Part shown: piece after piece, positions 9,128 to 33,992 of the stretch
Position numbering within the stretch: position 1 is the stretch's first letter
How the letters are laid out: every line of letters starts with the position of its first letter
From: a virus
Virus record (IMG/VR): IMGVR_UViG_3300025141_000359
Span: 1-35,053 of that record
Length of the DNA stretch: 35,053 nucleotides
Strand: one strand, 5' to 3'
The notes under the pieces: model-generated
Told to the model about the DNA's origin: nothing
The model's database searches: none
Seen by the model: the letters and a program-made list of their open reading frames with translations, nothing else
Position numbers and translations under genes: made by a program

Positions 9128-10600
9128 ATGAAAACAGCACAAGAAATAAGAGATGAGTGGTTGAAATGCTCTGACGACCCAATATACTTCATTAAGAAGT
9201 ATATTCTTATCTCACACCCTATTAGAGGTATTATACCCTTTAATTTGTACAGGTTTCAGGAAAGAATTGTATCTGAAATAACAAGTCACAGATTTTCTAT
9301 TGTTAGGAAATTTAGGCAGGCTGGAATCACTACCTTGACAGCTGCGTACGCTTTGTGGCAAATCATCTTCAATGAAGAGAAGGTTGTTATGGTGGTGTCT
9401 ATTGGTGATAGGGAGTCTCGAATGTTTTTAGAGCGTCTAGTAAATATGTTTGATGATTTACCACCTTGGTTAAAACCTCAAGAAGTAGAGAGAAATAAAC
9501 ATACCCTTAAGCTGTCTACGGGAAGTAGAGTTAAGGCTCAGCCTGCAGGCGCGGGTCGAGGAGAGGCTGTATCTCTTTTGATTGTTGATGAGGCGGCATT
9601 TGTTGACAAGATGAGGGAGTTCTGGATGGCGGTGTATCCAACTATCTCTACAGGTGGTTCGGCTGTTCTTATCTCTACTGTGAATGGTATGGCTAACTTA
9701 TATTACGAAATTTATCGGGATGCTGATAAAGGGAAGAACAATTTCCATGTTGTTGATATTAAGTGGCAAGAACATCCAGAGTATACAGAAAAGTGGGCTT
9801 CGGAGATTAAGCCAAACATTGGTCGTAGGGCGTGGTTACAGGAATATGAATGTGAGTTCTTAGGGACTGGTGACACCTTCATCGACGGAGAAACACTAAA
9901 AAGAGTCTACGATAACGTATCAAGTGAGTATACCGTAAAAAATAATAACATGATGCGGGTGTGGAAAGAGCCACAACCATACCACACATACATGTTAGCA
10001 GCAGATGCATCTTTTGGTAGAGAACGTGACTATTCTGCATTTCATATTATAAATTTGTATAATGGTGAGCAGGTAGCTGAATTTTATTCTAACAAGATTT
10101 CTTTACGAAATTTTGCAAAAGTTATCTCTGATGAAGGAAGGCGCTATAATCTAGCGCATGTTATTGTGGAAAGAAATGGTCTAGGTATTGCATTAATCGA
10201 AGAACTTTTTGAAGTTCAAGAATATGATAATATTTGGACAGATGAAAAGAATGAATTTGGATTCTTGCTTACACCTAAGGTTAGAGAGGCTACTCTAAGT
10301 TCCTTAGAGGAAAGTATTAGAAGCTCTAGGATTAAAATTAATTCTCAACGAACCGCAGACGAGCTCGGGGTATTTATTTTTACTGATACTGGAAAGGTCG
10401 AGGCTGAGGAAGGATACCACGATGACTTGGTTATGAGTCTTGCTGTGGGGTGTGATGTTATGAAAGATATATCAGCTAAATCCCCTATTGCTATAACAAC
10501 TAAGGAATCTGATAAATCTACTCCACCTCCTACGCTCAGCACGTCTAAATACAGTGAGCATACTGACATAAAGGACTATTCTAAATGGCTTCTGAAATAA
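9128..10600 (+). CDS. terL: Terminase large subunit (gp17-like ATPase/nuclease)
   Basis: This 490-residue protein is the DNA-packaging motor and headful nuclease, docking on the portal. The ATPase domain shows a Walker A-type loop KFRQAGITT at residues 61-69, Walker B LLIVDEAAF at 150-158 and the coupling motif LISTVNG at 181-187. The Walker A Lys expected before TT (T4: GKTT) is Ile here. A Lys sits at the start of the loop instead, as in several other phage terminases, so the ATPase is probably active. The RNase H-like nuclease has Asp293 (LAADASFG), Glu348 (VIVERNG) and Asp432/433 (YHDDLVMSLAVG), matching the T4 gp17 triad. It is shorter than T4 gp17 (610). The portal gene overlaps its end by 16 bp. 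Confidence 0.96.
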   Translation: MKTAQEIRDEWLKCSDDPIYFIKKYILISHPIRGIIPFNLYRFQERIVSEITSHRFSIVRKFRQAGITTLTAAYALWQIIFNEEKVVMVVSIGDRESRMFLERLVNMFDDLPPWLKPQEVERNKHTLKLSTGSRVKAQPAGAGRGEAVSLLIVDEAAFVDKMREFWMAVYPTISTGGSAVLISTVNGMANLYYEIYRDADKGKNNFHVVDIKWQEHPEYTEKWASEIKPNIGRRAWLQEYECEFLGTGDTFIDGETLKRVYDNVSSEYTVKNNNMMRVWKEPQPYHTYMLAADASFGRERDYSAFHIINLYNGEQVAEFYSNKISLRNFAKVISDEGRRYNLAHVIVERNGLGIALIEELFEVQEYDNIWTDEKNEFGFLLTPKVREATLSSLEESIRSSRIKINSQRTADELGVFIFTDTGKVEAEEGYHDDLVMSLAVGCDVMKDISAKSPIAITTKESDKSTPPPTLSTSKYSEHTDIKDYSKWLLK

Positions 10601-12240
10601 ACGAAAATCAATCCAACCTAAACGAGGACCAATCAAGCTTCCCAAGATATAATCCTGATGGGGGTTATCAAACTCCAGCGGGTCCTTTTAGGGCATTCTT
10701 CTCTAAATTCTTTAGTGGAAAAAAGAAAAGGGGGAGACCGTCTCTAAAACAAGAAAAGAGGCTTATGGGGGACGCGGCATCATCTGATGATGTAATGGCT
10801 CAGGCTAATGGGGCTATTGGGGTTACCAAGGGGATGTACAAACTCCCTAAGGTCGAGTACTCCAGAAGAAAGCGGTATGCGGACTATGAGCGAATGGAGG
10901 AGTATCCTGAGATAGGCTCATCTCTTGATATTTATGCAGACGATTCATGCCAGAAAGACAACGAGAGCAAGGTGTTCCGCGTAGTCACAGATAGTGACTT
11001 GGTTAAAGACGCCGTGCATTCTTTTATGGATTCAACCAATCTTAACAAGTACATCTGGGACATTGTCCGCAATACGGTAAAGTTTGGTGATTGTTTTGTC
11101 GAAAATATTGTTGACTTAAACAATCCTACCGCAGGCATACAAAGATTAAAGATATTAAATCCAAATTACATATACCGCTCCGAAGATAAGTATGGCTACT
11201 TAAAAGAATTCATTCAAGAGATTCCTAAGGAGGGCGCTCAGAACCAGGACTTTACACCCTCCTTAGACCACAAAACCAAAAATGTCCTTAAGTTAGATAA
11301 AAATCAATTAGTTCACTTTAGGTCATACACTTCTGACTCAAATTTTTATCCATACGGAAAATCTATTCTATCTTCTGCTGTTAGAGCATGGAAATCTCTG
11401 AGAATGATGGAAGATGCTATGATTATCTACAGACTACAAAGAGCTCCTGAGAGGAGAGTCTTCTACATTGAAACAGGAAACCTACCCCAAACAAAAGTAG
11501 AAGCGTTTATGGAAAGAATTAAGCAGAAATTCAAGAAGGAGAAATTTCTGGACCCAAGAAGCGGGAACGTGGACGAGAGGTACAATCCATTATCTGCGGA
11601 TGAGGATTTCTTTGTGCCCGTTCGTAATGGTCAAGGCACAAAAGTTGATGTACTGCCAGGTGCTCAAAATCTAGGTGATATCGATGATGTTAAGTATTTT
11701 AGAGATAAGTTACTATCAGCACTTAAGATACCTAAAGACTTTATTGTCGAAAAAGATTCGTCCCCAGAGAGAAAGGCTAACCTTTCTCAGTTAGACGTTA
11801 AGTTCGCAAAAGTAATTGCCAGGGTACAAAGAGAGGTGGAGATTGGGATTAATACCATTGTACGTAGGCACCTTAGGTTGCGTGAGTTCCCTGAGTCTAT
11901 GGTAAAGGAGCTTGCTGTTGAGTTTCAGCCACCCTCTGACATGTTCCTTAAGAGAAGGCTTGAAACGGACGAACAGAAAATTAGAATTGTGTCAGCTGTG
12001 AAAGGACTAGCACTATTCCCAGATGAGTACATCTACAAGTACTATTTCCAACTTTCGGATATGGAAATTAAAGATATCAAAAATGAGTTGGAAAAACAAC
12101 AGGAAGAAGAAGCCGAGGCTCAACCCGATATGGGTATGGGAATGGGCGGAATGCCTATGGAAGGTGAAGAGCCTCCCGTGGGAGAGAATATGGCTCCTGA
12201 AGAGGGAGCACCTCCGCCACCTGCGGAAGAAGGTCAGTAA
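10585..12240 (+). CDS. gp20: Portal protein (gp20-like)
   Basis: This 551-residue protein forms the dodecameric ring at the head vertex through which DNA enters and to which the tail joins. The family call rests on conserved gp20 blocks. There is a YADYERMEEYPEI block near residue 95 with SSLDIYADDS after it, and the hallmark YRLQRAPERRVFYIETGNLP segment near residue 280. A later segment matching the gp20 pattern begins LKIPKDFIVEKDSS. Length is close to T4 gp20 (524). The last 25 residues are a Met/Gly/Glu/Pro-rich low-complexity tail. The start has an AAGGA ribosome binding site and overlaps the terminase end, so the two are co-translated. T4 has sheath and tube genes (18, 19) between 17 and 20; here they are absent. 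Confidence 0.95.
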   Translation: MASEINENQSNLNEDQSSFPRYNPDGGYQTPAGPFRAFFSKFFSGKKKRGRPSLKQEKRLMGDAASSDDVMAQANGAIGVTKGMYKLPKVEYSRRKRYADYERMEEYPEIGSSLDIYADDSCQKDNESKVFRVVTDSDLVKDAVHSFMDSTNLNKYIWDIVRNTVKFGDCFVENIVDLNNPTAGIQRLKILNPNYIYRSEDKYGYLKEFIQEIPKEGAQNQDFTPSLDHKTKNVLKLDKNQLVHFRSYTSDSNFYPYGKSILSSAVRAWKSLRMMEDAMIIYRLQRAPERRVFYIETGNLPQTKVEAFMERIKQKFKKEKFLDPRSGNVDERYNPLSADEDFFVPVRNGQGTKVDVLPGAQNLGDIDDVKYFRDKLLSALKIPKDFIVEKDSSPERKANLSQLDVKFAKVIARVQREVEIGINTIVRRHLRLREFPESMVKELAVEFQPPSDMFLKRRLETDEQKIRIVSAVKGLALFPDEYIYKYYFQLSDMEIKDIKNELEKQQEEEAEAQPDMGMGMGGMPMEGEEPPVGENMAPEEGAPPPPAEEGQ

Positions 12241-14529: not shown

Positions 14530-14764
14530 ATTCAGGGTCTAGAATATAATCTTGTTTTAGCCATTGAATTAAGCATTCGGAGTATTTTGAACGTAAAATA
14601 AGTAATTCACTTATTACGCTATCGAGGGCTTTGACAGTATCTTCTGTTATAAGCCCTCTATCTTTTATACTGCCAATAGCGTCAATCAGGAGTTCAATAT
14701 TTTTTGTATCTAATTCCTGTATTTTGTTAATGTTTCTTTTCTTTTCAGTTCGATTTTCCATCAT
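14528..14764 (-). CDS. Small helical protein downstream of uvsW
   Basis: This protein of about 78 residues is not recognised. It begins with a Lys/Arg-rich stretch (NRTEKKRNINKIQ) followed by three predicted amphipathic helices. It contains one cysteine and no membrane segment. Its start, one of two adjacent ATGs at 14764 and 14761, lies inside the end of the uvsW gene by about 20 bp, so it is co-transcribed and probably translationally coupled with the helicase. In T4 a small gene, uvsW.1, also follows uvsW. The positional analogy is suggestive but I see no clear sequence identity. The gene stops at the shared terminator region. Confidence 0.6.
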   Translation of the reverse strand: MMENRTEKKRNINKIQELDTKNIELLIDAIGSIKDRGLITEDTVKALDSVISELLILRSKYSECLIQWLKQDYILDPE

Positions 14765-16100
14765 CAATATCTACATCTAATTTAAGTGATTTATACGCTT
14801 TTATCCTATCTTTTGAATGTTTAGTTAGATACGGCGCATTATCATAGTAATCTATTATAGTGGCTTTGTCTTTAGATTTGTGCTTTCTTAATGCTCTTCC
14901 TAAAGCTTGTAGGGTTGCTATTTCCGATTTTAGACCCCTCGCATTTATTAAGTGGGTTATTTCAGGAATATCTATGCCTGTCTGCATTACGTTAGTCCCT
15001 ATCAAAACTGAGCCCTCCTCATCTATAAACGTCTTAATCGTTGATTTTCTAGACTTTAAGTTGTCCTTCCCTTCCAACGTTAGTGAGCCAGGAATCATTT
15101 CTTTTAGTATCTCTAAGTGCTTTAAATTTTTAACTAAAATTAAAATCTTTCCATTTTTTATTTCTGCGCATTCTTCTGCTATCCTACTATTCCTGGATTC
15201 ATTATTAATAATATAGGAATCATACACTTCCATGTATGGGGCGTGGTCTAACCCCTCAATCTCCTCATTCTCGCGAATAATAACTTCAGCGTTTGATAGG
15301 TAATCCAACTCAATCAAATCTTTAGCGGTAGCGTCATTTACGACCTCCCCTAATCCAGTTATTAGGTTTAATTTAGAGAATTTATCGTTGGGTACGGTAG
15401 CTGTGAACCCAAACCTATAAGCTGCATTAGGAAAAGAACTTATGGCTTTTGTTGCAATTTTCCCTTTGGAGAACTCATGCACTTCGTCAAATATAATAAA
15501 ATTAGCTGTGGTTAAATGAGTATCGAGGACCTTGTCGATAGATTGTATTGTGCATAAGGTTATTGGTTTTATATCAACCCCCTCTCCAAATGCAATACCA
15601 CACTCAATCCCATGCTCTTTAAGAAACTCCCAAGTTTGGAGCATTAGTTGTTTCTTTGTGAAAAATATCAATCCAACATACGACTCTAACGCTTTCACAA
15701 TACTGGCAATGACAATTGTTTTCCCTGACCCTGTAGGTGCTTGGATTATACATCTCTTTTTGCTTAGAGCTTTTTCAATGGCTATTTTCTGGTAATCCCT
15801 AGCTTCTATACCTGGTATGGTGTAGTCCTGATACTCTGGTATATCCCTCAAATCTACGAGGTCGTACGGATAGTCTAGATACTCAAGGTCACGGATAATT
15901 TCGGACAATAAACCCGTTTTAAACTTGCCCGTCTTTTTGGAGAAGTGTTTTTTATCTCCCCTCCATCTATTTGCGCGATATTGCGGTGTGTACTCATAGC
16001 CTGGAACTTTACAACTATACTTTTTCTCTAAAGCTGTTTTTAGTTCTTCGTTATCAGATTTTAGAATACACTCTGTATTATTGATTACAATTTCATCCAC
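14745..16100 (-). CDS. uvsW: UvsW-type superfamily 2 DNA helicase
   Basis: This 451-residue ATP-dependent helicase would unwind branched DNA and R-loops and support recombination-dependent replication. Visible motifs are motif I APTGSGKT at 121-128, motif II DEVH at 205-208, motif III FTAT at 232-235, the later ATP-site motif QTGIDIPE at 373-380, and motif VI QALGRALRKH at 398-407. The N-terminal 90 residues precede the helicase core, as in T4 UvsW (503 residues). The start codon is GTG at 16100, with no in-frame ATG near. It lies 20 bp from the divergent 16121 gene with a palindromic TATAAT sequence between them. It is placed among virion genes rather than in a replication cluster. Confidence 0.93.
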   Translation of the reverse strand: MDEIVINNTECILKSDNEELKTALEKKYSCKVPGYEYTPQYRANRWRGDKKHFSKKTGKFKTGLLSEIIRDLEYLDYPYDLVDLRDIPEYQDYTIPGIEARDYQKIAIEKALSKKRCIIQAPTGSGKTIVIASIVKALESYVGLIFFTKKQLMLQTWEFLKEHGIECGIAFGEGVDIKPITLCTIQSIDKVLDTHLTTANFIIFDEVHEFSKGKIATKAISSFPNAAYRFGFTATVPNDKFSKLNLITGLGEVVNDATAKDLIELDYLSNAEVIIRENEEIEGLDHAPYMEVYDSYIINNESRNSRIAEECAEIKNGKILILVKNLKHLEILKEMIPGSLTLEGKDNLKSRKSTIKTFIDEEGSVLIGTNVMQTGIDIPEITHLINARGLKSEIATLQALGRALRKHKSKDKATIIDYYDNAPYLTKHSKDRIKAYKSLKLDVDIDDGKSN

Positions 16101-16120: not shown

Positions 16121-17008
16121 ATGACAGATTCTGAAAAAACGATTATAGATTTAGCGGCGGAGCATATGGCGACTCCCCCTGAATCTAATGCTACCCCCTC
16201 CGAACAACCTCAACCTGAGCCACAGCCTGAGACACCTAGAAAAAGGTCTCAAGGCAAAGAAGCACCACGTAAGTCAGCAGACAAACCTGTTGAGGATATC
16301 TTAGCGGGTTTATTAAAGGAAAAATCTAACACTACTTCAGTCCTAGTGGACCTACCCTCTGGTGGTAAAGCTTACCACGAACACGCAGGTCACGTTAATA
16401 TTAGCCCTTTTACATACGCGGACGAAAAGCATCTCAGGGGGGTGACAAACATGTCTGGGGCACAAAAAGCTATCGGAACTATCTTTGACCGCTGCGTAGA
16501 GGGTCTTAGTTACGAGGAATCTACTATACCAGATAAAAACTATTTATTGTTTAAGCTTAGAGAGATTTCATACGGGGATGATTACCCAATCACTTTAAAT
16601 TGTGATACGTGTGGTGCAAATAACATGCTTAAACTAAAAATATCTTCAATTCCCGTTAACACGGCTAAAGAAGATTTGGAAGACCCTATTAAGGTGACAC
16701 TTCCAGACACCGAACAAGAAGTCGAAATTCGACTTCCCCGCTCAAGAGACGAGAGCTATATGGAAAATTTAGGAAGTATAACAAACAATTTATGGAGATT
16801 TGTTATTTCAGTAGGCGGGTATACTGATGGTGTCGTCGTGAGGAAATTTATTGAGCAGACGTCGGTTAGGGATGTAGACGTTATGAGAGCAACTGTGTTG
16901 AATGTAGATTATGGTTTAGACCAGAAGATGTCTTACCACTGTCTTGAATGTGGTCATCTTAACAAGGGTATGATACCCCTTAATGAGAATTTTTTCTCAG
17001 CGAGCTAA
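16121..17008 (+). CDS. T4 gp26-type baseplate hub protein with zinc ribbon (zero-frame product)
   Basis: The zero-frame product has 295 residues. Residues 1-60 are a Pro/Glu/Lys-rich disordered leader. The rest matches the T4-like base plate protein pattern (Pfam PF12322 type, gp26). There is LPSGGKAY at 78-85, PFTYADEKHL at 96-105 and YLLFKLREISYGDDY at 141-155, followed by two Cys pairs, CDTC (161-164) and CLEC (274-277), that should form a zinc ribbon. In T4, gp26 acts in baseplate hub assembly. The gene ends with a slippery T_TTT_TTC at 16990-16996, three codons before the stop, and a downstream hairpin. Part of the product is therefore probably extended in the -1 frame to 356 residues (see 16996-17190). 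It shares a 20-bp divergent promoter region with uvsW. Confidence 0.8.
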   Translation: MTDSEKTIIDLAAEHMATPPESNATPSEQPQPEPQPETPRKRSQGKEAPRKSADKPVEDILAGLLKEKSNTTSVLVDLPSGGKAYHEHAGHVNISPFTYADEKHLRGVTNMSGAQKAIGTIFDRCVEGLSYEESTIPDKNYLLFKLREISYGDDYPITLNCDTCGANNMLKLKISSIPVNTAKEDLEDPIKVTLPDTEQEVEIRLPRSRDESYMENLGSITNNLWRFVISVGGYTDGVVVRKFIEQTSVRDVDVMRATVLNVDYGLDQKMSYHCLECGHLNKGMIPLNENFFSAS

Positions 17009-17032
17009 CGGAAAGAGAGAAGGTTAGCGCGT
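16990..17032 (+). promoter_or_regulatory. Programmed -1 ribosomal frameshift signal
   Basis: The heptamer T_TTT_TTC (16990-16996) is a canonical X_XXY_YYZ slip site in the reading frame of the gp26-type gene (codons AAT TTT TTC). It is followed by a hairpin. GCTAAC (17004-17009) pairs perfectly with GTTAGC (17023-17028) across a 13-nt purine-rich loop. After one A/G mismatch, GCG (17000-17002) pairs with CGT (17030-17032), including one G-U pair. The spacing from the slip site to the 6-bp stem is 7 nt, within the usual range. The zero-frame stop (17006-17008) lies inside the stem. All this is read directly from the sequence; frameshifting itself is inferred. Confidence 0.8.
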
Positions 17033-17190
17033 ACACCAAGGAAACATACACGTTAGTTCACCGATGTGGGTTCTCTCTGCGTGACTCACTTCTCCTATCC
17101 CCCAAGGAGGGGTTGGAGTATTTGCAGCTATATAAAGAGGAGTTAGACCGAGAAAAGGAGGAGTATGATAAGCTCGGGAGCTCTAAATAA
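16996..17190 (+). CDS. Frameshift extension of the gp26-type protein (tail-assembly-chaperone-like T domain)
   Basis: These 64 codons lie in the -1 frame relative to the gp26-type gene, ending at TAA 17188-17190. The open stretch starts just after a TGA at 16984-16986 and has no ATG or GTG. The only TTG codons are at 17113 and 17122, too late to be useful, so it cannot readily be translated on its own. The peptide looks real: charged, helical and Glu/Lys-rich (LSELTEREKVSAYTKETY, then a short CGFSLRD turn and LEYLQLYKEELDREKEEY). It recalls the C-terminal extensions of phage tail-assembly chaperones such as lambda gpGT. Fused to 292 upstream residues it gives a 356-residue protein. In T4 the neighbouring hub-assembly gene is 51, so this may be its functional counterpart (inference). 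Confidence 0.75.
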   Translation, partial: LSELTEREKVSAYTKETYTLVHRCGFSLRDSLLLSPKEGLEYLQLYKEELDREKEEYDKLGSSK

Positions 17191-17196
17191 TATGAC

Positions 17197-18087
17197 ATGT
17201 CAGATTTCCCCAATAACAATAGTGTTTCTGTTACTCGCAGGCACCAGCATCCCGCTGTAAACGAAAGAACATTCTTAGAGTTATATTTTTCTAAGAATGG
17301 TGCGTACCTCGACCCAAACGAAGTAAAATCAGTCCATATATTCCAGGACGATATTAGCACCTCTAATGGAGATGCGGGGTATTTCATCGATGCCAGTGGT
17401 CTAGTGAATGCTAATTATGAAAAGGACGCACTGTTTATCTTCTCTGGGGCTGGTGTGCAGGAGACCTTTACAGGCGGTGTACTCGACTCTAGTGGTATAT
17501 TCAACCTATCTGGTATTAGCGGATATTTGGGCGTTGTACTAACCCCTACGGCTCAATACATGGATGCTAGTGGTAATATCAAGACCAACACGCTCACAGC
17601 AAATGGTAGTTATTTCGACATCTGGACATTAAAGAAGGGTCCACATTTGAATTTCACTACCTATCCTCATTCTTTTACTATGTCGGATAAGAATGTTATT
17701 ACCTTTACGGAACCAATAAATTACACAGTATCACACAGAGTTTCTCAGAGGTATGGCAATGTAGGCTCAGTCATGCAAGTAGACTGTCTGGTGGATATCT
17801 CTATTATTAATCAGAACATTGACGACGAGACTAAGAATATCATAGAAGACACTATTGTCAATGATGCTGACGTTAGAATTCTAAAAATAAATCACGAAAT
17901 GTCTGGAGACCCATTCACTGAGATTAGGGCTTGGGGTGATTCGGGAGTCAACATAACGTCTATGAATACCATTCAGCTCCTGTGGGACACATCTGCACTC
18001 ACCTCTGGTGACTATCAGATACAAATCAGGCACAGATTACACAGCGAATATGTCTACTCTGATAAGTTTACGATAATTTTGAAGTAA
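17197..18087 (+). CDS. Beta-rich probable virion structural protein
   Basis: This 296-residue protein is not assigned to a named family. It is rich in Ser, Thr, Asn, Asp and Ile, with alternating short predicted strands, and it has no cysteine-based motifs or membrane span. Residues 60-135 hold repeated D/S-ASG or SSG turns (IDASGLVN, LDSSGIFNLSGISG, MDASGNIK), as often seen in phage fibre, collar or tail-surface proteins. The C-terminal third resembles an Ig-like or carbohydrate-binding beta-sandwich, ending in a DYQIQIRHRLHSEY strand pair. It follows the frameshift extension by 6 bp without a good ribosome binding site, so coupling to frameshifted ribosomes stopping at 17190 is possible. 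Its stop overlaps the convergent primase gene by 20 bp. A virion location is inferred. Confidence 0.65.
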   Translation: MSDFPNNNSVSVTRRHQHPAVNERTFLELYFSKNGAYLDPNEVKSVHIFQDDISTSNGDAGYFIDASGLVNANYEKDALFIFSGAGVQETFTGGVLDSSGIFNLSGISGYLGVVLTPTAQYMDASGNIKTNTLTANGSYFDIWTLKKGPHLNFTTYPHSFTMSDKNVITFTEPINYTVSHRVSQRYGNVGSVMQVDCLVDISIINQNIDDETKNIIEDTIVNDADVRILKINHEMSGDPFTEIRAWGDSGVNITSMNTIQLLWDTSALTSGDYQIQIRHRLHSEYVYSDKFTIILK

Positions 18088-19051
18088 GAAAATACTCAAA
18101 ATCAATTTTCTTAATGTTTGCAGTGATATAATCACTTATGTTAGATTCATTAGAATCTACGTGAAATTCGTTCCAATCCTTGTATTTTTCTGGAGGATGA
18201 AGAACGTACAAATTGTCCATGTTTTTATATAAACAATTAGTTCTTGATTTCACTATCCCCTTCTTACCTGCTTCATCATTGTCGTAAGACAGAATAATTT
18301 TTCTGTCTCCTAACTGTTTAATCTGGTTAGCCGATAAGTTACTTCCTTGTGTACAAGTAGAATTAAACCCATTAATTTGTAGACTCATAGAGTCCAGGGG
18401 ACCTTCAGTTACTATAATATAATTCTTATCTTTATTAAAGGGGTATAAGATATCTGAAGACTTAATTCCATATTCAGAAGCTTTAGGATTTAAGTATTTC
18501 ATACCAAAGCTTGTTAAGTTTCTTGCTTGAAAGTAATAAGGTTTTTTATTCTTTGTGTAGGGTATAATTATTCTGTTGATGTATTGACCGCTAAGAGATA
18601 CATAGAATTTACATCTATGTAATTTTCTCTCCCTAACAAAGTTAGAGGCTAATTTCTCCGATAAATGAATCGAATTCTTGGAGTTTTTCAAATCAACCTC
18701 TTTGAAGTTTTTAAACTCATCTCCTATGTTATTGCTGTATAAGGACTTCTGCTCTTTCTTTATTTCTGAGATATTTTGGAACAGTTTTTCTGGGGTGTCG
18801 AACATTTTGGACATAATAAACGCTCTAGCCCTGTCCAATGGGATTCCCTCCAAGTAGGATATAAGATGGAAAAAGTTGCCGTTATCGCCAGACTTGAAGT
18901 CTTGCCAAAGACCAGTAGATAAGTTAACAGACAAATGCATCTTGTAGTCCTCAGCCAGAAACGAGTTCGCTAAGAATTCTTGATGAGCTACTTTAAATGT
19001 GTCAAATTTTGACTCGAGGTAGTCTCTTATAACTTCAGAAGGTATATCCAT
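18068..19051 (-). CDS. DNA primase (gp61/DnaG type, Toprim) lacking zinc-ligand cysteines
   Basis: From the ATG at 19051 this primase has 327 residues, close to T4 gp61 (342). It makes RNA primers for lagging-strand synthesis, with the replicative helicase as partner. The Toprim domain shows EGPLD at 216-220 (catalytic Glu and metal Asp) and SYDNDEAG at 255-262 (DxD-type metal site). The N-terminal region keeps the shape of a primase zinc domain (LSTGLWQDFKSGDNGNFFHL) but has no cysteine before residue 147, so the usual zinc ligands are missing. The frame continues upstream only to a TTG at 19084, which would overlap the divergent nuclease gene. ATG 19051 is preferred and shares the sequence CATG with the nuclease start. 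It stands alone on the minus strand. Confidence 0.85.
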   Translation of the reverse strand: MDIPSEVIRDYLESKFDTFKVAHQEFLANSFLAEDYKMHLSVNLSTGLWQDFKSGDNGNFFHLISYLEGIPLDRARAFIMSKMFDTPEKLFQNISEIKKEQKSLYSNNIGDEFKNFKEVDLKNSKNSIHLSEKLASNFVRERKLHRCKFYVSLSGQYINRIIIPYTKNKKPYYFQARNLTSFGMKYLNPKASEYGIKSSDILYPFNKDKNYIIVTEGPLDSMSLQINGFNSTCTQGSNLSANQIKQLGDRKIILSYDNDEAGKKGIVKSRTNCLYKNMDNLYVLHPPEKYKDWNEFHVDSNESNISDYITANIKKIDFEYFLTSKLS

Positions 19052-19835
19052 GTTTTTAAATAAATTAAGTCCCAGCAAAATCAAAGTCTACGACGAGTGT
19101 AAACAGAAGTACAAATTTCGATATATTGATTATTTGTCGGATGATTATAATGATGGCACTAATACGGACGCCCTACAATTTGGCTCATTTATCCATAAGG
19201 TTTTTGAGGATGGCTACACCTGTGATAGCGTAGACGGGTTGTTAGATATAGCTAAAGCTCTACGCAGCCAGTTTACTTTTGGGCAGGAAAAGGGGAAGCT
19301 TACCGAAAGGTGCATTCATAATTTCTTCCATTTTAACAAGAACTTAGAGGAGACTGTTAGCGCAGAGATGCAGTTCTCTTTGGATGTTGGTGATGACCTA
19401 AAATTAAATGGTATTATTGACCGAGTAATAAAGGGCACGTCTGGGAAGTACTTAGTGATTGACTACAAGACGTCAAAGCGACCAGCATCTAAAAAAGACC
19501 TGTACAACGACCCTCAGATGATTATGTACACACTGGCAATCCACAAAACATACAATGTGCCGATACCAGACATTACAGCCGCACATTACTACCCCCATCT
19601 GGACAAACTAGTCCCTATTAAGTACATGGAAGCCCAAGTTCTTGCGTTTGAACGTAAAATGAAAGAGAAGGCTTGGGAGATAAGAAAGAGGAAGAAAGTG
19701 GAGTTCCCCCCGTGTATTAATAGGTTTTGCGACTGGTGTGGCTATAAGGATATATGCCCCGCTTTCGGCGCTACAGAAATGGATATCGAAAAGGCTATAA
19801 AAGAATCCAGAGAGAAGAAAGCTAAATCTACTTAG
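19050..19835 (+). CDS. Cas4/RecB-type PD-(D/E)XK nuclease with Fe-S cluster cysteines
   Basis: This 261-residue protein is predicted to be a single-strand DNA exonuclease that could process recombination or replication intermediates. It shows LSPSKIKVYDEC (6-17), GSFIHKVFEDG with His49, GIIDRV with Asp124, VIDYKTSKRP with Asp138 and Lys140, and the QMIMY block at 156-160. Together these form the RecB/Cas4 active site. Cys17 with the C-terminal cluster Cys227-x2-Cys230-x5-Cys236 matches the four Fe-S cluster ligands of Cas4 and AddB. The ATG at 19050 has an AGAAGG ribosome binding site and overlaps the divergent primase ATG in CATG. No CRISPR genes are present, so a phage recombination role is more likely than spacer acquisition. 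Many T4-like phages carry such a gene. Confidence 0.88.
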   Translation: MFLNKLSPSKIKVYDECKQKYKFRYIDYLSDDYNDGTNTDALQFGSFIHKVFEDGYTCDSVDGLLDIAKALRSQFTFGQEKGKLTERCIHNFFHFNKNLEETVSAEMQFSLDVGDDLKLNGIIDRVIKGTSGKYLVIDYKTSKRPASKKDLYNDPQMIMYTLAIHKTYNVPIPDITAAHYYPHLDKLVPIKYMEAQVLAFERKMKEKAWEIRKRKKVEFPPCINRFCDWCGYKDICPAFGATEMDIEKAIKESREKKAKST

Positions 19836-22666: not shown

Positions 22667-23859
22667 TGGCACACGAACTTAAAGATATTGGAATGAATGT
22701 GGCGGCTGGCTTTGTCGGTGGCTTAATAAATGAACTTGTAAATGGCAAAGACCCAAGGAACCTAGACAGATTGTACAAAGTATCTGACATTAGGTATAAT
22801 AAAGCTATTGAGGAGCGAGGTGGCATTAGATTATTTTTCACGGACGGGTTTGACCAATCAGGAGATAGTGATAATAAAAAAGGTGCACGAACAGCAGCTT
22901 TACCCACTGGGTATTCCAGGTGGATACCCTTCTTCGAAAATCCCCGAATAACCGAAAGTAAGGCGTCCAGTTACGCAAGCTCTAGAATTTTTGGTCGTAA
23001 CGAGCCTGTTAGGTTGTGGACGGGAGCCGAGCCTAGAAGACTAGAGCTTGAGATGACTTATACCATACCTCATATAGCATTATTTTATTCCAGAGACCTT
23101 TTGAGTAGAATGAATAATAAATATAAGAGCCGAGAACCAAATCCTAACGAAAGCTCCACCGATACGTACATGTACCAATTAGAGAAGGTGCTACATTCTT
23201 TAATTATGTACGATATCCACAAAGACCCTTCCGTGTACGAAAGTATGATACGTGATTTTGATGTACAAGGACCAGGAGATAGTGCGATGTTGGATGCAGC
23301 AAAAACAAAACAAAGCGCATCACAGAGAACAGAAGGTATGCGAATGCCGTCAGCCCTAGCTGAGATTGTACCCGCAGATTTTAAAGATTCTTTAGGGCTA
23401 GGAATGCTGGAACTTAATGACCCGCACAGTCCCGCCCATTTAGCAATGATGAAGCTAGTTCATTATGTTGTAGACCATATAAGAGCTTCCGTAGTAGGAA
23501 CAGTAACTTACCCGTTAGTAGGTCCACCATTAGCATATTTAAAATGGGGAACTATGTACAATGAGGTACCATGCATAATAAAGGATTACAATATAACTTT
23601 AGATGATGAAGGAGGCATGGACGCTAAAACATTAATTCCTAGAGTATTAAAAATAAGAATGAATCTCGAAGAAATTCATGCTGTAAACAGGCTAACCGAT
23701 TTAACCCACTACTCACGCTCCACGACTTCAACCAATTTAGGTTTACTTGAAGAACACGAGTTAACAGATGCTAGTAGAGGGTTGCCAGGGTGGGATAAGT
23801 TTGTCCGCCCCGAACGTGGTATAGAAGGAGGTATGTGGGGGAGGAGGATAATTAGGTAA
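22666..23859 (+). CDS. Tail tube/baseplate junction protein (gp48/gp54-like, tentative)
   Basis: This 397-residue protein follows the tape measure gene (TAATG overlap) and precedes gp53. T4 has genes 48 and 54, the tube initiator proteins on top of the baseplate, right after gene 29, so position suggests the same role. The sequence starts with an amphipathic Gly-rich helix (MNVAAGFVGGLINELV). Near residues 85-130 it has IPFFENPRITESKASSY, then IFGRNEPVRLWTGAEPRRLELEMTY. This block recalls the first domain of XkdP-like or LysM-containing baseplate proteins, where a target is displayed as a beta-sheet. A C-terminal strand-rich part (VPCIIKDYNITLDDEGG) resembles tail-tube folds. The assignment is by context and pattern, and an internal hub role is possible. 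Confidence 0.6.
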   Translation: MAHELKDIGMNVAAGFVGGLINELVNGKDPRNLDRLYKVSDIRYNKAIEERGGIRLFFTDGFDQSGDSDNKKGARTAALPTGYSRWIPFFENPRITESKASSYASSRIFGRNEPVRLWTGAEPRRLELEMTYTIPHIALFYSRDLLSRMNNKYKSREPNPNESSTDTYMYQLEKVLHSLIMYDIHKDPSVYESMIRDFDVQGPGDSAMLDAAKTKQSASQRTEGMRMPSALAEIVPADFKDSLGLGMLELNDPHSPAHLAMMKLVHYVVDHIRASVVGTVTYPLVGPPLAYLKWGTMYNEVPCIIKDYNITLDDEGGMDAKTLIPRVLKIRMNLEEIHAVNRLTDLTHYSRSTTSTNLGLLEEHELTDASRGLPGWDKFVRPERGIEGGMWGRRIIR

Positions 23860-24155
23860 TGAGTAGATTCAAATCCAGAAATAAAGTATTTTCAACTTTG
23901 AATAGAATTCACAGGGATAAATCTGTTCCAGATATTACTGCAAGTTTTGCCTGGGGAAACTTTTATTCTAATATAGAAGAGTCTGATTATAAAATTGGGA
24001 TTATACCGCCAGAGATGGAGGGGAGACCTGACTTGTTAGCCGTGTCTGTTTATGGAAACACAAGTTTTTGGTGGGTTATCTGTATCGCTAATGACGTACT
24101 TGACCCTTTAGAAGATTTATGGAGTGGCAGGGAAATTATTTTTCCCTTAATATAA
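23859..24155 (+). CDS. gp53: Baseplate wedge protein gp53-like
   Basis: This 98-residue protein is about half the length of T4 gp53 (196). In T4 gp53 clamps neighbouring baseplate wedges around the hub. The diagnostic region is residues 55-98: LAVSVYGNTSFWWVICIAND, followed by VLDPLEDLWSGREIIFPL. This is the typical gp53 end, where a short Y/F-x-x-x-W-W helix is followed by a LysM-like G-x-x-I-x-x-P strand. The N-terminal half (SRNKVFSTLN) is basic. The gene overlaps the preceding one as TAATG and is followed after 3 bp by the hub gene, which fits the baseplate operon of other contractile tails (tape measure, LysM/gp53 protein, hub, spike). Confidence 0.8.
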   Translation: MSRFKSRNKVFSTLNRIHRDKSVPDITASFAWGNFYSNIEESDYKIGIIPPEMEGRPDLLAVSVYGNTSFWWVICIANDVLDPLEDLWSGREIIFPLI

Positions 24156-28987: not shown

Positions 28988-31927
28988 ATGCCTCTTTTAA
29001 CTAAACAATCCCTAAGCTTAGTACCGAGTACATCACTCGTTAGTATGCAGAATGCATTCATAGTAAAGAAAGGCTCATTGTTATCAAAATTATCCGCATT
29101 AAATACTAAGCAACAAAAATTATCTGGAATAACAACAATAACCGATGTAAGTAAAGGTCGCACAAATGTTGTCTCAACATCCATGAATTCACAGAGGGAT
29201 AGGCAAAAAAGATTAATTTTGCCTTCTGTAACTTTTAAGGAGACCGTAGAGAGGATTATTGAAGTATCAGGTCACGGAAGCGTGTTTTGTTCAGGAACCT
29301 CCAACCCACCGTCAGCGTCCCAGATTGACCAGATGGTGGATGATATAGATAGCGTATATGAAGATACTAACGTTTCTGGAGTTTTGGCTGCAGATTTATT
29401 TTTAGAATCACAGTTACAGCTTAATTCCAAATCAATTAGTTCTGTTAGAATTGAGATAGAAACTTTAAGAACAAACATAGCAACTATAAATGAAGTTCTA
29501 GATGAGAGGGCGAAAGGTACCGTTGAGGAGCCTTGCATAAATTCAGATATATTGGGAAACTTCCCACTAAGCCAAGTCCTTTCTGATACAATCAAACAAT
29601 ACGAGGGATTTGTTGAGAATGCAATCGTGGTCCCATACAACGAGAACCAAAGAATTATACAAGCTTTGTTATCTCAAGTAGTAACAAAGGGAGAGGATGC
29701 ACCCAAGTTTGATTTAGTTTACGGACCTCCAGTATCAACGAAAGGACAGTTTGTTCTGTCAGAGGATGGTTTATATTATGACTCAAGGTCTGGCGGGTTA
29801 CCACCCGACATTGTCCAGGAATGTTGTAACTCAAATTTATGGAACTTAGCATATGCGGCGAATAAAGGAGGCAGAGGAGTTGATTTCTCAAAAATAGATT
29901 TAGATAAGATTAAGGATACTGCATTTGACATAGATATCGACATTGAAAACGCCGTGGTCAAAGCCTTTTATGAAGTTGACCCACTATTATCTTCCTATGA
30001 ATCTGATAAGAATGTCCATATTAATAAGGTATCAGACCAAATTAATGAGCTTCTAGCATACTCTGAGTATGATGCATCATCAGCTATAGTTATAAACTAT
30101 AAAGAAAGTTTAAGAGCGGTAAGCCAAACCTACGACTCAAAAATAAATAAAAGAAAGAAACAAGTTCAGCTAGCTGCATTATTTGGTCCGTTTAGTTTAA
30201 CAGACTACGATAATGCTCTGGGAGCAGGTCACGTGGTTGAGACTACATACGACATATCGGGAAATGTTGAATCAACAAAAATTATACCACACGTACCTGT
30301 AAATGACTTTACATATCTAAGAGGCGTTTTAAACCCGACTTTAGACCAACAGAAAAAACTAACACTGTTCTCTGAGGACTTAGATGATATAATTAAACCC
30401 GTACAGCCCGTTTACCTGGTTTTACCAGAACCCTCGTTTACATTCATAAAACAGTTTTCTGTTGATAGACTATCGGTAGGAGACTGGACTAAAATAGAAG
30501 GTGCTTCTGGTAGTGCATCTGGCAGCTCTCCTTATGTTAAGAGTTTGACAGATGACATCATAACCGATAATTTACTTATTTGTTATAATTTTACTAACTC
30601 TAAAGTAGACCACGTCAGTGGGAATTCATTTAATATATCTAATGCCGCTGAAGGTTCAAACGCCTTAAACGGAAGACTTGTAGGTGAAACCATGGCGGAC
30701 ACGTTCCCCAAAGGATTATCCATCCCATATCTTACTGGTGTAGAGCGTACTGATTATATAAACAGGGTCCCACAATTTGTTGAGTTACCAAATAACTGGA
30801 GGATGGGGGCGGATGGTGTATGGTCTCTTTATCCTGGTTCTTCTCGCTTAGATGATTTATTAGTAAGGAATGAAGGCGCCACTTTTGATAGCTGGGTACA
30901 CGTTCCAGATTTTTATGAAGACGGTTATAAGGGATGGCTTGCAAGATATAGATTGTTGTTAGCTTGTGAAAATTCTGGTGGCGATATTGGTGATTATATC
31001 ACAGCTGGTATGAATTATTCATTAAGTGGCAATAGAGATGACAGAAAGGTTCACGGGATGATGATAGGTTGGAGATTCGACCCAGGAACGGCAAATTTTT
31101 ATAACAAAGGAGATTTACAATTTGTTGTGTTGCCAACAGTTTCCCAGAACCCAGATGGCGGGGAGTTTGGGAATAGTGTGGCAATTGCAGAGAAGAGACT
31201 AGAGGGTGACTGTTCTACATCTGAAGGTGTGGTAGAACTCGGTATGAAAGTTTCCGCGACTAAACAAACGGCTAGTGGGTATAAGATGAGTGACGTATCG
31301 GCAGGATTTTATCATATCTCTGTTAATTTTGATTACAAACAGGACACATTAAGTTTATATTTAGACGGTGAGTTACTTGAAGCATCATCAATAACAACAT
31401 GTTTTAATAGAGTGGCTGGGGAGAAGCTTAATACACCATCCCCAATAAAGATAGGATTTAATGATTTTAGGGATAGTTTTAACACCCATCCAAGTAACCA
31501 ACGAGGTGTGTCAATTTACGACCCTAACCAACTCCCGTCTGTACCAGTAACAACCCCCTGGATTATAGGTGGTGGGTTTACTGATAATATTTGGGATAAA
31601 GACCATCTTCAGGATTACTGGAATATTAGACCAATTGGACCACAGGGATTTATGGGTACTAACACCAACGATACATATAACAATAGAGATATCCTCGAAG
31701 TGTCTGGCGGTCCATCTCCAGGAGGTCTTCCAGACGGGAATAATTGGATTCTAGGACAACATTACCCACCAATATCGGGAAGAGGTGGCACATCACGACA
31801 AACTCGAAGCGGGCTCGAAGGATATGTTGGTAGTTTTAAGGTGTACACAAAATCCCTAACTACTAGTGAAGTTCTATCAAACTACAATGCCCAAAAGGGG
31901 TTTTTCAAAAATATTGATATAACATGA
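28988..31927 (+). CDS. Large virion protein with C-terminal LamG/concanavalin-like domain
   Basis: This 979-residue protein sits between the spike tip and gp25 genes, where T4 has no counterpart. Residues 1 to about 510 are mainly helical with coiled-coil-like stretches (STSLVSMQNAFIVKKGSLL; ESQLQLNSKSISSVRIEIE). From about 525 to the end there is a laminin-G/concanavalin A-like fold. It shows LLICYNFTNSKVDHVSGNSF near 530, a strand pair HISVNFDYKQDTLSLYLDGE near 780, and the hallmark end VGSFKVYTKSLTTSEVLSNY with NAQKGFF. Such domains bind glycans and occur in tail adhesins. I infer a baseplate-associated protein, perhaps receptor-binding or a plug around the spike. Translation is coupled to gp25 through ATGA. 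The start lacks a ribosome binding site; a TATAGTATA sequence precedes it. Confidence 0.75.
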   Translation: MPLLTKQSLSLVPSTSLVSMQNAFIVKKGSLLSKLSALNTKQQKLSGITTITDVSKGRTNVVSTSMNSQRDRQKRLILPSVTFKETVERIIEVSGHGSVFCSGTSNPPSASQIDQMVDDIDSVYEDTNVSGVLAADLFLESQLQLNSKSISSVRIEIETLRTNIATINEVLDERAKGTVEEPCINSDILGNFPLSQVLSDTIKQYEGFVENAIVVPYNENQRIIQALLSQVVTKGEDAPKFDLVYGPPVSTKGQFVLSEDGLYYDSRSGGLPPDIVQECCNSNLWNLAYAANKGGRGVDFSKIDLDKIKDTAFDIDIDIENAVVKAFYEVDPLLSSYESDKNVHINKVSDQINELLAYSEYDASSAIVINYKESLRAVSQTYDSKINKRKKQVQLAALFGPFSLTDYDNALGAGHVVETTYDISGNVESTKIIPHVPVNDFTYLRGVLNPTLDQQKKLTLFSEDLDDIIKPVQPVYLVLPEPSFTFIKQFSVDRLSVGDWTKIEGASGSASGSSPYVKSLTDDIITDNLLICYNFTNSKVDHVSGNSFNISNAAEGSNALNGRLVGETMADTFPKGLSIPYLTGVERTDYINRVPQFVELPNNWRMGADGVWSLYPGSSRLDDLLVRNEGATFDSWVHVPDFYEDGYKGWLARYRLLLACENSGGDIGDYITAGMNYSLSGNRDDRKVHGMMIGWRFDPGTANFYNKGDLQFVVLPTVSQNPDGGEFGNSVAIAEKRLEGDCSTSEGVVELGMKVSATKQTASGYKMSDVSAGFYHISVNFDYKQDTLSLYLDGELLEASSITTCFNRVAGEKLNTPSPIKIGFNDFRDSFNTHPSNQRGVSIYDPNQLPSVPVTTPWIIGGGFTDNIWDKDHLQDYWNIRPIGPQGFMGTNTNDTYNNRDILEVSGGPSPGGLPDGNNWILGQHYPPISGRGGTSRQTRSGLEGYVGSFKVYTKSLTTSEVLSNYNAQKGFFKNIDIT

Positions 31928-32352
31928 CATTAAACAGAGAATTATCAACGGTTGATTTTGTAACCACTTCTAAAAGAAATCCAATTTACGGGTTCTCTTT
32001 TCCAACTTCCGTGGGTCTTGGTGGCAGTTTCACTAAAAGTGAGGGACTTAGCGCAATAAAAGCGGGACTTATACAACTGCTTCTTACATCAAGAGGTGAG
32101 CGTGTTATGAGACCTGGATTTGGGTGCAGTTTAAGAGGTAATATTTTTGAGCCCAATGATACTAGCACCTTAACTGATATAAGAAGAAGTATAATTGAGA
32201 CCATAGCAGCATATGAGGACCGAGCTGTCGTGCACTCGTTACAAGTTACCTCTGACCCAAAAGATATATCTGATTCACGTATAAAAATATCATTAGCGAT
32301 AGCATTAAAAAATGACCTAGCAACAATACAAACTTTAGAGGTAATAGTATGA
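31924..32352 (+). CDS. gp25: Baseplate wedge protein gp25-like
   Basis: This 142-residue protein has the size and pattern of T4 gp25 (132) and of the T6SS TssE/gpW family, which nucleates sheath assembly on the baseplate wedge core. Residues 40-78 carry the hallmark: a helix with AIKAGLIQLLLTSRGERVMR, then PGFGCSL and IFEP. This is the conserved R-G-E-R-x-x-x-P-x-F-G-C/S block with the Glu-Pro-Arg contact to gp6. The C-terminal half (DSRIKISLAIAL) forms the second strand pair. It overlaps the preceding gene and the gp6 gene, both as ATGA, so the three are translationally coupled. Confidence 0.93.
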   Translation: MTLNRELSTVDFVTTSKRNPIYGFSFPTSVGLGGSFTKSEGLSAIKAGLIQLLLTSRGERVMRPGFGCSLRGNIFEPNDTSTLTDIRRSIIETIAAYEDRAVVHSLQVTSDPKDISDSRIKISLAIALKNDLATIQTLEVIV

Positions 32353-33992
32353 CAGACACTAATTTTTTCGACGGGCTATACAATTCATCGGGTTTTGATG
32401 GAACTGTACAGTCTGATTTTCTTAGGCTGGGCTTACTAGCTGCTCCTGAAAAGAGAAGCCTAATTGATTATTCCGTTATTACATTTGACGAGCATAGGGA
32501 AGCTTTTGATAATTATATTAAAGCTGTGTACCCAACGGATTATTCTAATTTTTATAACTCGGATTTAGGTGGTATGTTAATGGATTTGATTGCGTACATG
32601 GGAAGCGTAATTTCTCTAAGAACTGACATGATAGCCAATGAGATGTATCTCCCAACTGTAAAGAACAAAACTAATCTAACAAAATTATTGCAGCTAATCG
32701 GAGTATCCATGAAGGGTCCCACAAGTGCTAAAGCAACGGGACTAGTATCTCTAACCGATGCGGATAAGCTCACAGACGCAGCCCACGCAATAGTAATACC
32801 ATTCTCCCAGAGAAGCGTTGCCGCCCAAAATTCCAGAGATACTACCCCTGTTACTTATACAATGTATAAAATGAGTACAGATGGCTCTTTAAATACCGAA
32901 AGCACTCAATTAGAGGATTTAGAGTTAACTTATTCGGAATCAGATGACACTGGTGGGCGAGAATGGTCTAATGTTATTCTTCTAGAGGGTTCACTCGGAC
33001 AACAAACAGGAACTTTCTCCACGGCATCAACATTACAGTCAATTGAGATTGCTAACCCATCTATTATTGAGGGGAGTATTTTTGTTGTATTAGATGATGG
33101 GTCTGTGTATTCAGAAATAAAGAATTTGTTCTTGGCGTCGGATGGTACTCACGAAGTTTTTGAAAAAGTATATAATTCAAATTATTCTTGTACGTTGAAT
33201 TTTGGTGATAATATCCGAGGCAAATCACCCACCCCAGGAAGCGGGTACACAGTTTATTATCGCTCTGGTGGAGGTTCAAGAGGAAATATACTGGAGAACA
33301 CGATAAATTTAAGTTTTGACGTAACCAAGACAGATAGCTCCTCCCCCGTAGCTACATTAGTAGCATCAGTAGTTAACTCTACTCATGGAAGCGGTGGATT
33401 TGAAGCGGAAACTATAGAGCACGCCAAGCGGTATGCACCATACTTCTTCAAAACACAGTATCGCGCTGTAACAGGTGAGGACTATACAACGCTTGCATCC
33501 ACCTTCGTTGGAACTGCTGGGTCTACTGCAAAGGCTAATGCCGTTCTTAGACAAGCTGGCTCTTCAGCAAATATGATTGATATTTATGTATTAGGAAAGG
33601 CTACAGCGTTGCAATTAGAGCGAGCATCTATCGCGTTCAAGAAAGAGTTACTTGACCATCTTAATGAGTATAAAATGTTAACGGATGAGGTTACCATAGT
33701 AGATGGGGTGGTGAGAACAGTTGATTTAGTTTGTTCTCTTTATGTGGATGCACACAGAGAAAAGACTGAAGAGGAGATTAAGCAGAAAGTTGCCGACAAA
33801 CTCCTCTCCTATTTTAATGTGGATAATAGAGACTTCGCACAATCCCTGGAAATCGCTGATTTAGTCGGAGATGTCCTTAGTGTGCCAGAGGTTCGGTTCT
33901 TTAGAATTAATAATTTTGATGACGATATTCGTGTTGGGCACAACGAAATTATACAACTTAATAATTTTGAGTTAAACGTGGAGTTTGTATGA
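32349..33992 (+). CDS. gp6: Baseplate wedge protein gp6-like (baseplate J family)
   Basis: This 547-residue protein matches the baseplate_J/gp6 family, the wedge core protein that dimerises into the ring around the hub (T4 gp6, 660). The N-terminal region (SVITFDEHREAFDNYIKAVYPTDY, then SDLGGMLMDLIAYMGSVISL) is typical: a 'D-x-x-F-N/D-S' strand, then a Leu-rich helix. Mid-protein GSGYTVYYRSGGGSRGN (about 295-315) and IEHAKRYAPYFFKTQYRAVTGEDY (355-380) are the classic J-family blocks, and the C-terminus has a DREF-type strand. Stop and next start are one base apart (TGA, then ATG at 33994), and AGAGG serves as ribosome binding site. Position after gp25 is as in other contractile tails. Confidence 0.92.
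   Translation: MTDTNFFDGLYNSSGFDGTVQSDFLRLGLLAAPEKRSLIDYSVITFDEHREAFDNYIKAVYPTDYSNFYNSDLGGMLMDLIAYMGSVISLRTDMIANEMYLPTVKNKTNLTKLLQLIGVSMKGPTSAKATGLVSLTDADKLTDAAHAIVIPFSQRSVAAQNSRDTTPVTYTMYKMSTDGSLNTESTQLEDLELTYSESDDTGGREWSNVILLEGSLGQQTGTFSTASTLQSIEIANPSIIEGSIFVVLDDGSVYSEIKNLFLASDGTHEVFEKVYNSNYSCTLNFGDNIRGKSPTPGSGYTVYYRSGGGSRGNILENTINLSFDVTKTDSSSPVATLVASVVNSTHGSGGFEAETIEHAKRYAPYFFKTQYRAVTGEDYTTLASTFVGTAGSTAKANAVLRQAGSSANMIDIYVLGKATALQLERASIAFKKELLDHLNEYKMLTDEVTIVDGVVRTVDLVCSLYVDAHREKTEEEIKQKVADKLLSYFNVDNRDFAQSLEIADLVGDVLSVPEVRFFRINNFDDDIRVGHNEIIQLNNFELNVEFV

Follow-up and report, generated by a model that had tools for sequence, protein, structure and literature searches.

A probable tail assembly chaperone gene of gp26 type with a predicted -1 frameshift in an uncultured T4-superfamily myovirus

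The window, meaning the whole 35,053-nucleotide stretch of DNA analysed, carries a gp26-type gene that very probably (about 0.88) specifies a tail assembly chaperone pair, a short TAC-N of 295 residues and a long TAC-NC of 356 residues made via -1 slippage. Conservation, covariation and purifying selection, seen in every relative examined, all speak for programmed -1 frameshifting in this gene. That ribosomes slip here, how often they would do so, and that the products act as chaperones is inferred.

By its sequence the window is a fragment of a T4-superfamily myovirus. Other recognised genes are a UvsW-like helicase (14745-16100, minus strand, adjoining the gp26-type gene), terminase (9128-10600), portal (10585-12240), primase (18068-19084, minus strand), PD-(D/E)XK exonuclease (19050-19835) and baseplate genes of gp53 type (23859-24155), gp25 type (31924-32352) and gp6 type (32349-33992). 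No gene for a tube, sheath or tape measure protein could be recognised there. No DNA-level relatives of the window were found in the phage collection.

The 0-frame gene lies on the plus strand at 16121-17008, stop codon TAA (17006-17008) included, and encodes 295 amino acids (TAC-N). Its product matches PF12322 (E 1.9e-18, profile positions 6-218 of 219), the match ending at residue 292, which is the slip site, and PHROG 150 (E 1.3e-17). The 3' end reads AAT TTT TTC TCA GCG AGC TAA and therefore holds an in-frame slip heptamer T_TTT_TTC at 16990-16996. The -1 extension (TAC-C, plus strand, 16996-17190) consists of 64 codons and a stop TAA (17188-17190); its assignment rests on the lack of ATG or GTG, on selection and on homology. 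The -1 frame is open from 16987 only, being closed upstream by TGA at 16984-16986. It contains no ATG or GTG in the window, and the near-starts are limited to CTG 17077, TTG 17113 and TTG 17122. The predicted 0/-1 fusion has 356 residues and the unshifted form 295. The initial annotation had described the 64-codon frame without usable start and the two product lengths, and both descriptions hold, the lengths as those of predicted products read from the ORFs. It had also called the gene a gp26-type hub gene. The gp26 type is borne out by PF12322; "hub" is a database label, and tape-measure or tail assembly chaperone is the better reading.

The heptamer is followed by a 7-nt spacer (16997-17003, plus strand), conserved in the clade of relatives described below as TCAG(T/C)GA, and by a putative stimulatory hairpin (17004-17028, plus strand; arms 17004-17009 and 17023-17028, loop 17010-17022 of 13 nt). 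The helix begins 7 nt past the heptamer, within the expected range of 5-9 nt. Heptamer, spacing and 6-bp hairpin had been placed correctly to the base in the initial annotation. Three outer pairs, 17000-17002 with 17030-17032 (17000-17032, plus strand), include one G-U and are separated from the inner helix by a 1x1 mismatch. These further pairs, also annotated before, are present in the window and are not conserved among relatives, in which the inner helix is conserved. The local fold of the window has an MFE of -11.0 kcal/mol (z -2.8).

When IMG/VR was scanned with the 0-frame protein and with its alignment, 36 loci of 36-44% identity came up. The heptamer, the stop three codons later, the hairpin and the open -1 frame are kept in every relative that covers the 3' end (36-46% identical); loss of the slip site or of the open -1 frame in close relatives had been proposed beforehand as an observation that would tell against frameshifting. 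The heptamer is T_TTT_TTC in 31 of 32 members of the clade and T_TTT_TTT in the remaining one. The frame offset is identical in more than 30 relatives, and the -1 ORFs of the clade extend 54-60 codons beyond the 0-frame stop. Past the part that holds the signal, the -1 ORF has a median dN/dS of 0.24 (Nei-Gojobori, 94 pairs), below 1 and indicative of purifying selection, as the alignment proposed in the initial annotation was expected to give along with a conserved slip site. In the more distant L006 (32% identical to the window) the window's AATTTTTTCTCAGCGAGCTAACGGAAA is shared to the letter. In L042 (3001-3880) an apparent indel, due either to a sequencing error or to decay, disrupts the gp26 frame far ahead of the slip site; slip site and hairpin are intact. 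L007 was a false tblastn match and was dropped.

The hairpin covaries. Among 24 aligned relatives, double changes occur at 4 of 7 pairs and 95.7% of cells are paired; paired cells fall to 9-40% when the helix is slid by 1-3 columns, and none of 500 shuffles matched the observed covariation score. The aligner moved the 2-nt shorter loop of the window into the 3' arm, so that some pairs of the window were set aside or misplaced. Read by eye, the window helix is GCTAAC/GTTAGC, with six perfect pairs and two compensated changes.

The same arrangement is present outside the clade. The 3' ends were also read in 16 deposited phage genomes, once PF12322 had been placed in them. T_TTT_TTC followed by a -1 ORF is found in P-SSM2, Syn9, KVP40, PhiW-14, Atu_ph07, GAP32 and RaK2, and T_TTT_TTT followed by a -1 ORF in Cr30, phiM12, HTVC008M and XacN1. 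In cyanophage-type IMG/VR loci T_TTT_TTC is invariant (80/80) and stands exactly 3 nt ahead of the stop.

In cyanophage and KVP40 records the -1 ORF is annotated as a separate gene, and an ATG stands just past the stop in 68 of 80 cyanophage-type loci. A free gp51-like peptide, unfused and made by re-initiation after the gp26 stop, could account for both facts. It is an improbable reading of the window, in which, as in its clade, ATG and GTG are lacking at this place. The ATG is also missing in 12 of the 80 loci whereas the heptamer is missing in none, the annotated starts in Syn9 and HTVC008M cut into the conserved region, and T4 gp51 carries the domain as a fusion with PF12322. In Syn9 and HTVC008M the genes named "baseplate hub assembly catalyst" (L194, Syn9, 1749-1892; L195, HTVC008M, 2367-2504) begin at an internal ATG and omit the opening stretch of the conserved -1 frame. 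The truncated starts are probably an annotation artefact of an unrecognised frameshift.

Joining of the frames by transcriptional slippage on the T6 run, in place of ribosomal slippage, is very unlikely. T runs of 6-8 are present in all members (L031 has TTTTTTTTC) and would suit it, but a run of six T is short for a polymerase to slip on. The exact X_XXY_YYZ heptamer, in frame, and an RNA hairpin that covaries and keeps a fixed distance of 7 nt suit the ribosome. The window by itself is suggestive only, because its plus strand holds six copies of TTTTTTC and an open frame of 64 codons has a p of about 0.02 in its sequence; a chance open frame, a sequencing error or a decayed gene is nevertheless dismissed, given the same frame offset in the relatives and in 80 cyanophage-type loci, the purifying selection and the covariation. 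The frameshift signal is settled by these comparative data, namely the conserved slip site, the open -1 frame, the covarying stem and the dN/dS of about 0.24.

Under ribosomal -1 frameshifting the majority of ribosomes would translate 16121-17008 and release the 295-residue TAC-N. A minority would shift one base back at U_UUU_UUC, probably with help from the hairpin that begins 7 nt further on; these would read on to 17190 and yield TAC-NC, of 356 residues. If the proteins behave like lambda gpG/gpGT, the tape measure protein would be bound by many copies of TAC-N and few of TAC-NC, tail tube subunits would be brought in by the C-terminal domain, and both forms would be absent from the virion. 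In T4 the same two products would come from gene 26 (short) and gene 51 (long).

In T4, gp26 (E 5e-63) and gp51 (E 4e-52) each match nearly the full length of the PF12322 profile. T4 gp51 goes on for about 48 residues past this part, and its residues 200-245 align with the -1 peptides of cyanophages, KVP40 and others (probability 67%, E 5e-5). T4 gp26 has no gp51-type tail and does not align with the -1 peptides. The KVP40 record itself annotates the -1 ORF product as resembling the C-terminus of T4 gp51. The clade -1 peptide and the cyanophage-type -1 peptide match each other (probability 94%, E 1.3e-7). PHROG 634, "baseplate hub assembly catalyst", is matched by 7 of 7 cyanophage-type -1 peptides. 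Of the 21 -1 peptides from the clade, 10 match it at a loose threshold, the best with E 5e-4; the window's own peptide gave no match in HMM searches of Pfam and PHROGs. The clade -1 profile matches T4 gp51 directly only weakly, so homology to the gp51 tail runs via the cyanophage-type intermediates. On these alignments T4 gp51 is a gp26 paralogue with a C-terminal tail homologous to the -1 peptide. Since both T4 proteins are PF12322 members and only gp51 has the tail, gp51 would correspond to the long form and gp26 to the short form. The correspondence of the T4 26/51 pair with a frameshifted chaperone, suggested in the initial annotation, is thus upheld through the intermediates.

In a further group of gp26 homologues, the SP-15-type relatives (L159-L190, L013-L015, L073; 3' ends), it is the +1 frame that encodes the C-terminal chaperone domain. 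"+1" names the frame at these junctions; a -2 shift gives the identical frame. The +1 and -1 domains are homologous (probability 96%, E 3.6e-9), so the direction of shift seems to have changed within one family. The commonest junction is TTT_CGT, preceded by a codon for Phe and seen in 16 loci, with two near-identical pairs among them; it is found as UUU_CGU in GXN1 and many uncultured SP-15-type relatives. UUU_CGU is the +1 motif of influenza PA-X. Where FF is followed by an Arg codon, this codon is CGN in 19 of 19 loci and CGT in 16 of them, whereas 311 of 412 Arg codons in the genes of this group are AGA or AGG. Other junctions are TTT_CAC (SP-15), TTT_AGT (LIS04), TTT_TGG (RM378) and, in a subgroup, TTA/CTA TTY AAT CCC. 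The sequences make it fairly likely that one homologous chaperone gene changed its mode of joining, being joined by -1 (U_UUU_UUC) in the window clade, cyanophages and KVP40, by +1 (mostly UUU_CGU) in the SP-15 type, and by duplication and fusion in T4 26/51. The +1 placement in SP-15-type relatives is possibly unreported.

The AlphaFold model of the 0-frame protein has a pLDDT of 88.5. Among solved structures re-aligned by VIA-align, 2ob9, the tail assembly chaperone of HK97, comes first (Z 5.8; rmsd 5.2 over 87 residues; model residues 57-151), ahead of a next row at Z 3.7. The match agrees with a chaperone role, but a Z of 5.8 by itself might reflect a common arrangement. A Foldseek search of the PDB with this model gave no significant match, and searching PDB sequences with a profile of cyanophage gp26 gave no credible one. 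The -1 peptide is modelled as helices (pLDDT 86); a fold search with it returned just middling helical matches. Two CxxC pairs (residues 161-164 and 274-277 of the 0-frame protein) are conserved in the clade, and VIA-align places model residues 157-288 weakly on small LysW proteins (Z 3.7); because of both, a zinc-ribbon-like part is possible.

The gene directly after the -1 ORF (17197-18087) belongs to no known family. A product with a similar N-terminus is encoded after the -1 ORF in relatives (e.g. L001, L002, L005) and in L006. In HTVC008M the tube gene is followed by gp26, "gp51", a small ORF and the tape measure gene, in that order; in SP-15 and LIS04 gp26 stands behind sheath and tube and ahead of the tape measure. 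The position of gp26 between tube and tape measure in these three is the place of lambda G/GT.

In lambda gpG/gpGT a -1 shift near the end of the chaperone gene gives a minor, C-terminally extended form (PMC5009743). According to the same 2016 review, long-tailed phages conserve the G-T shift "except T4". The T4-like chaperones were treated by Vladimirov, Gautam & Davidson (2022, Virology 566:9-15), as cited in PMC10885494 and PMC12846349; the former describes the T4 solution as a short gene accompanied by a longer, fused one, and the latter notes that TAC-N genes of T4-like phages have polyT slippery sites. The inference of a frameshift and of its relation to 26/51 is therefore already published in substance, and the window is a new, well-supported example. 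The 2022 abstract reportedly has the shift kept in several T4-like groups, with T4 using genes 26 and 51.

T4-type phages would thus obey the short/long chaperone rule of long-tailed phages, with covariation evidence from an uncultured clade. By implication, many cyanophage genes named "gp51 baseplate hub assembly catalyst" would make up the latter half of a single frameshifted gene. With -1, +1 and duplication alternating within one family, there would be a way to test why a fixed short-to-long ratio matters.

The window and lambda gpG/gpGT are alike in shift arrangement, a likeness not based on sequence homology; the lambda slip site differs from that of the window. With the "gp26" and "gp51 baseplate hub assembly catalyst" of cyanophages and KVP40 the window shares heptamer and -1 ORF, but those records show two annotated genes, mostly with an extra ATG beside the stop, and the window has no ATG there. 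The T4-like chaperones of 2022 have in common with the window the short and long forms and the polyT slippery site in the TAC-N gene; the window differs in its uncultured clade and in the covarying hairpin worked out here. In T4, 26 and 51 are two divergent adjacent genes and the end of gene 26 lacks a slip site, whereas in the window one gene would be read in two frames.
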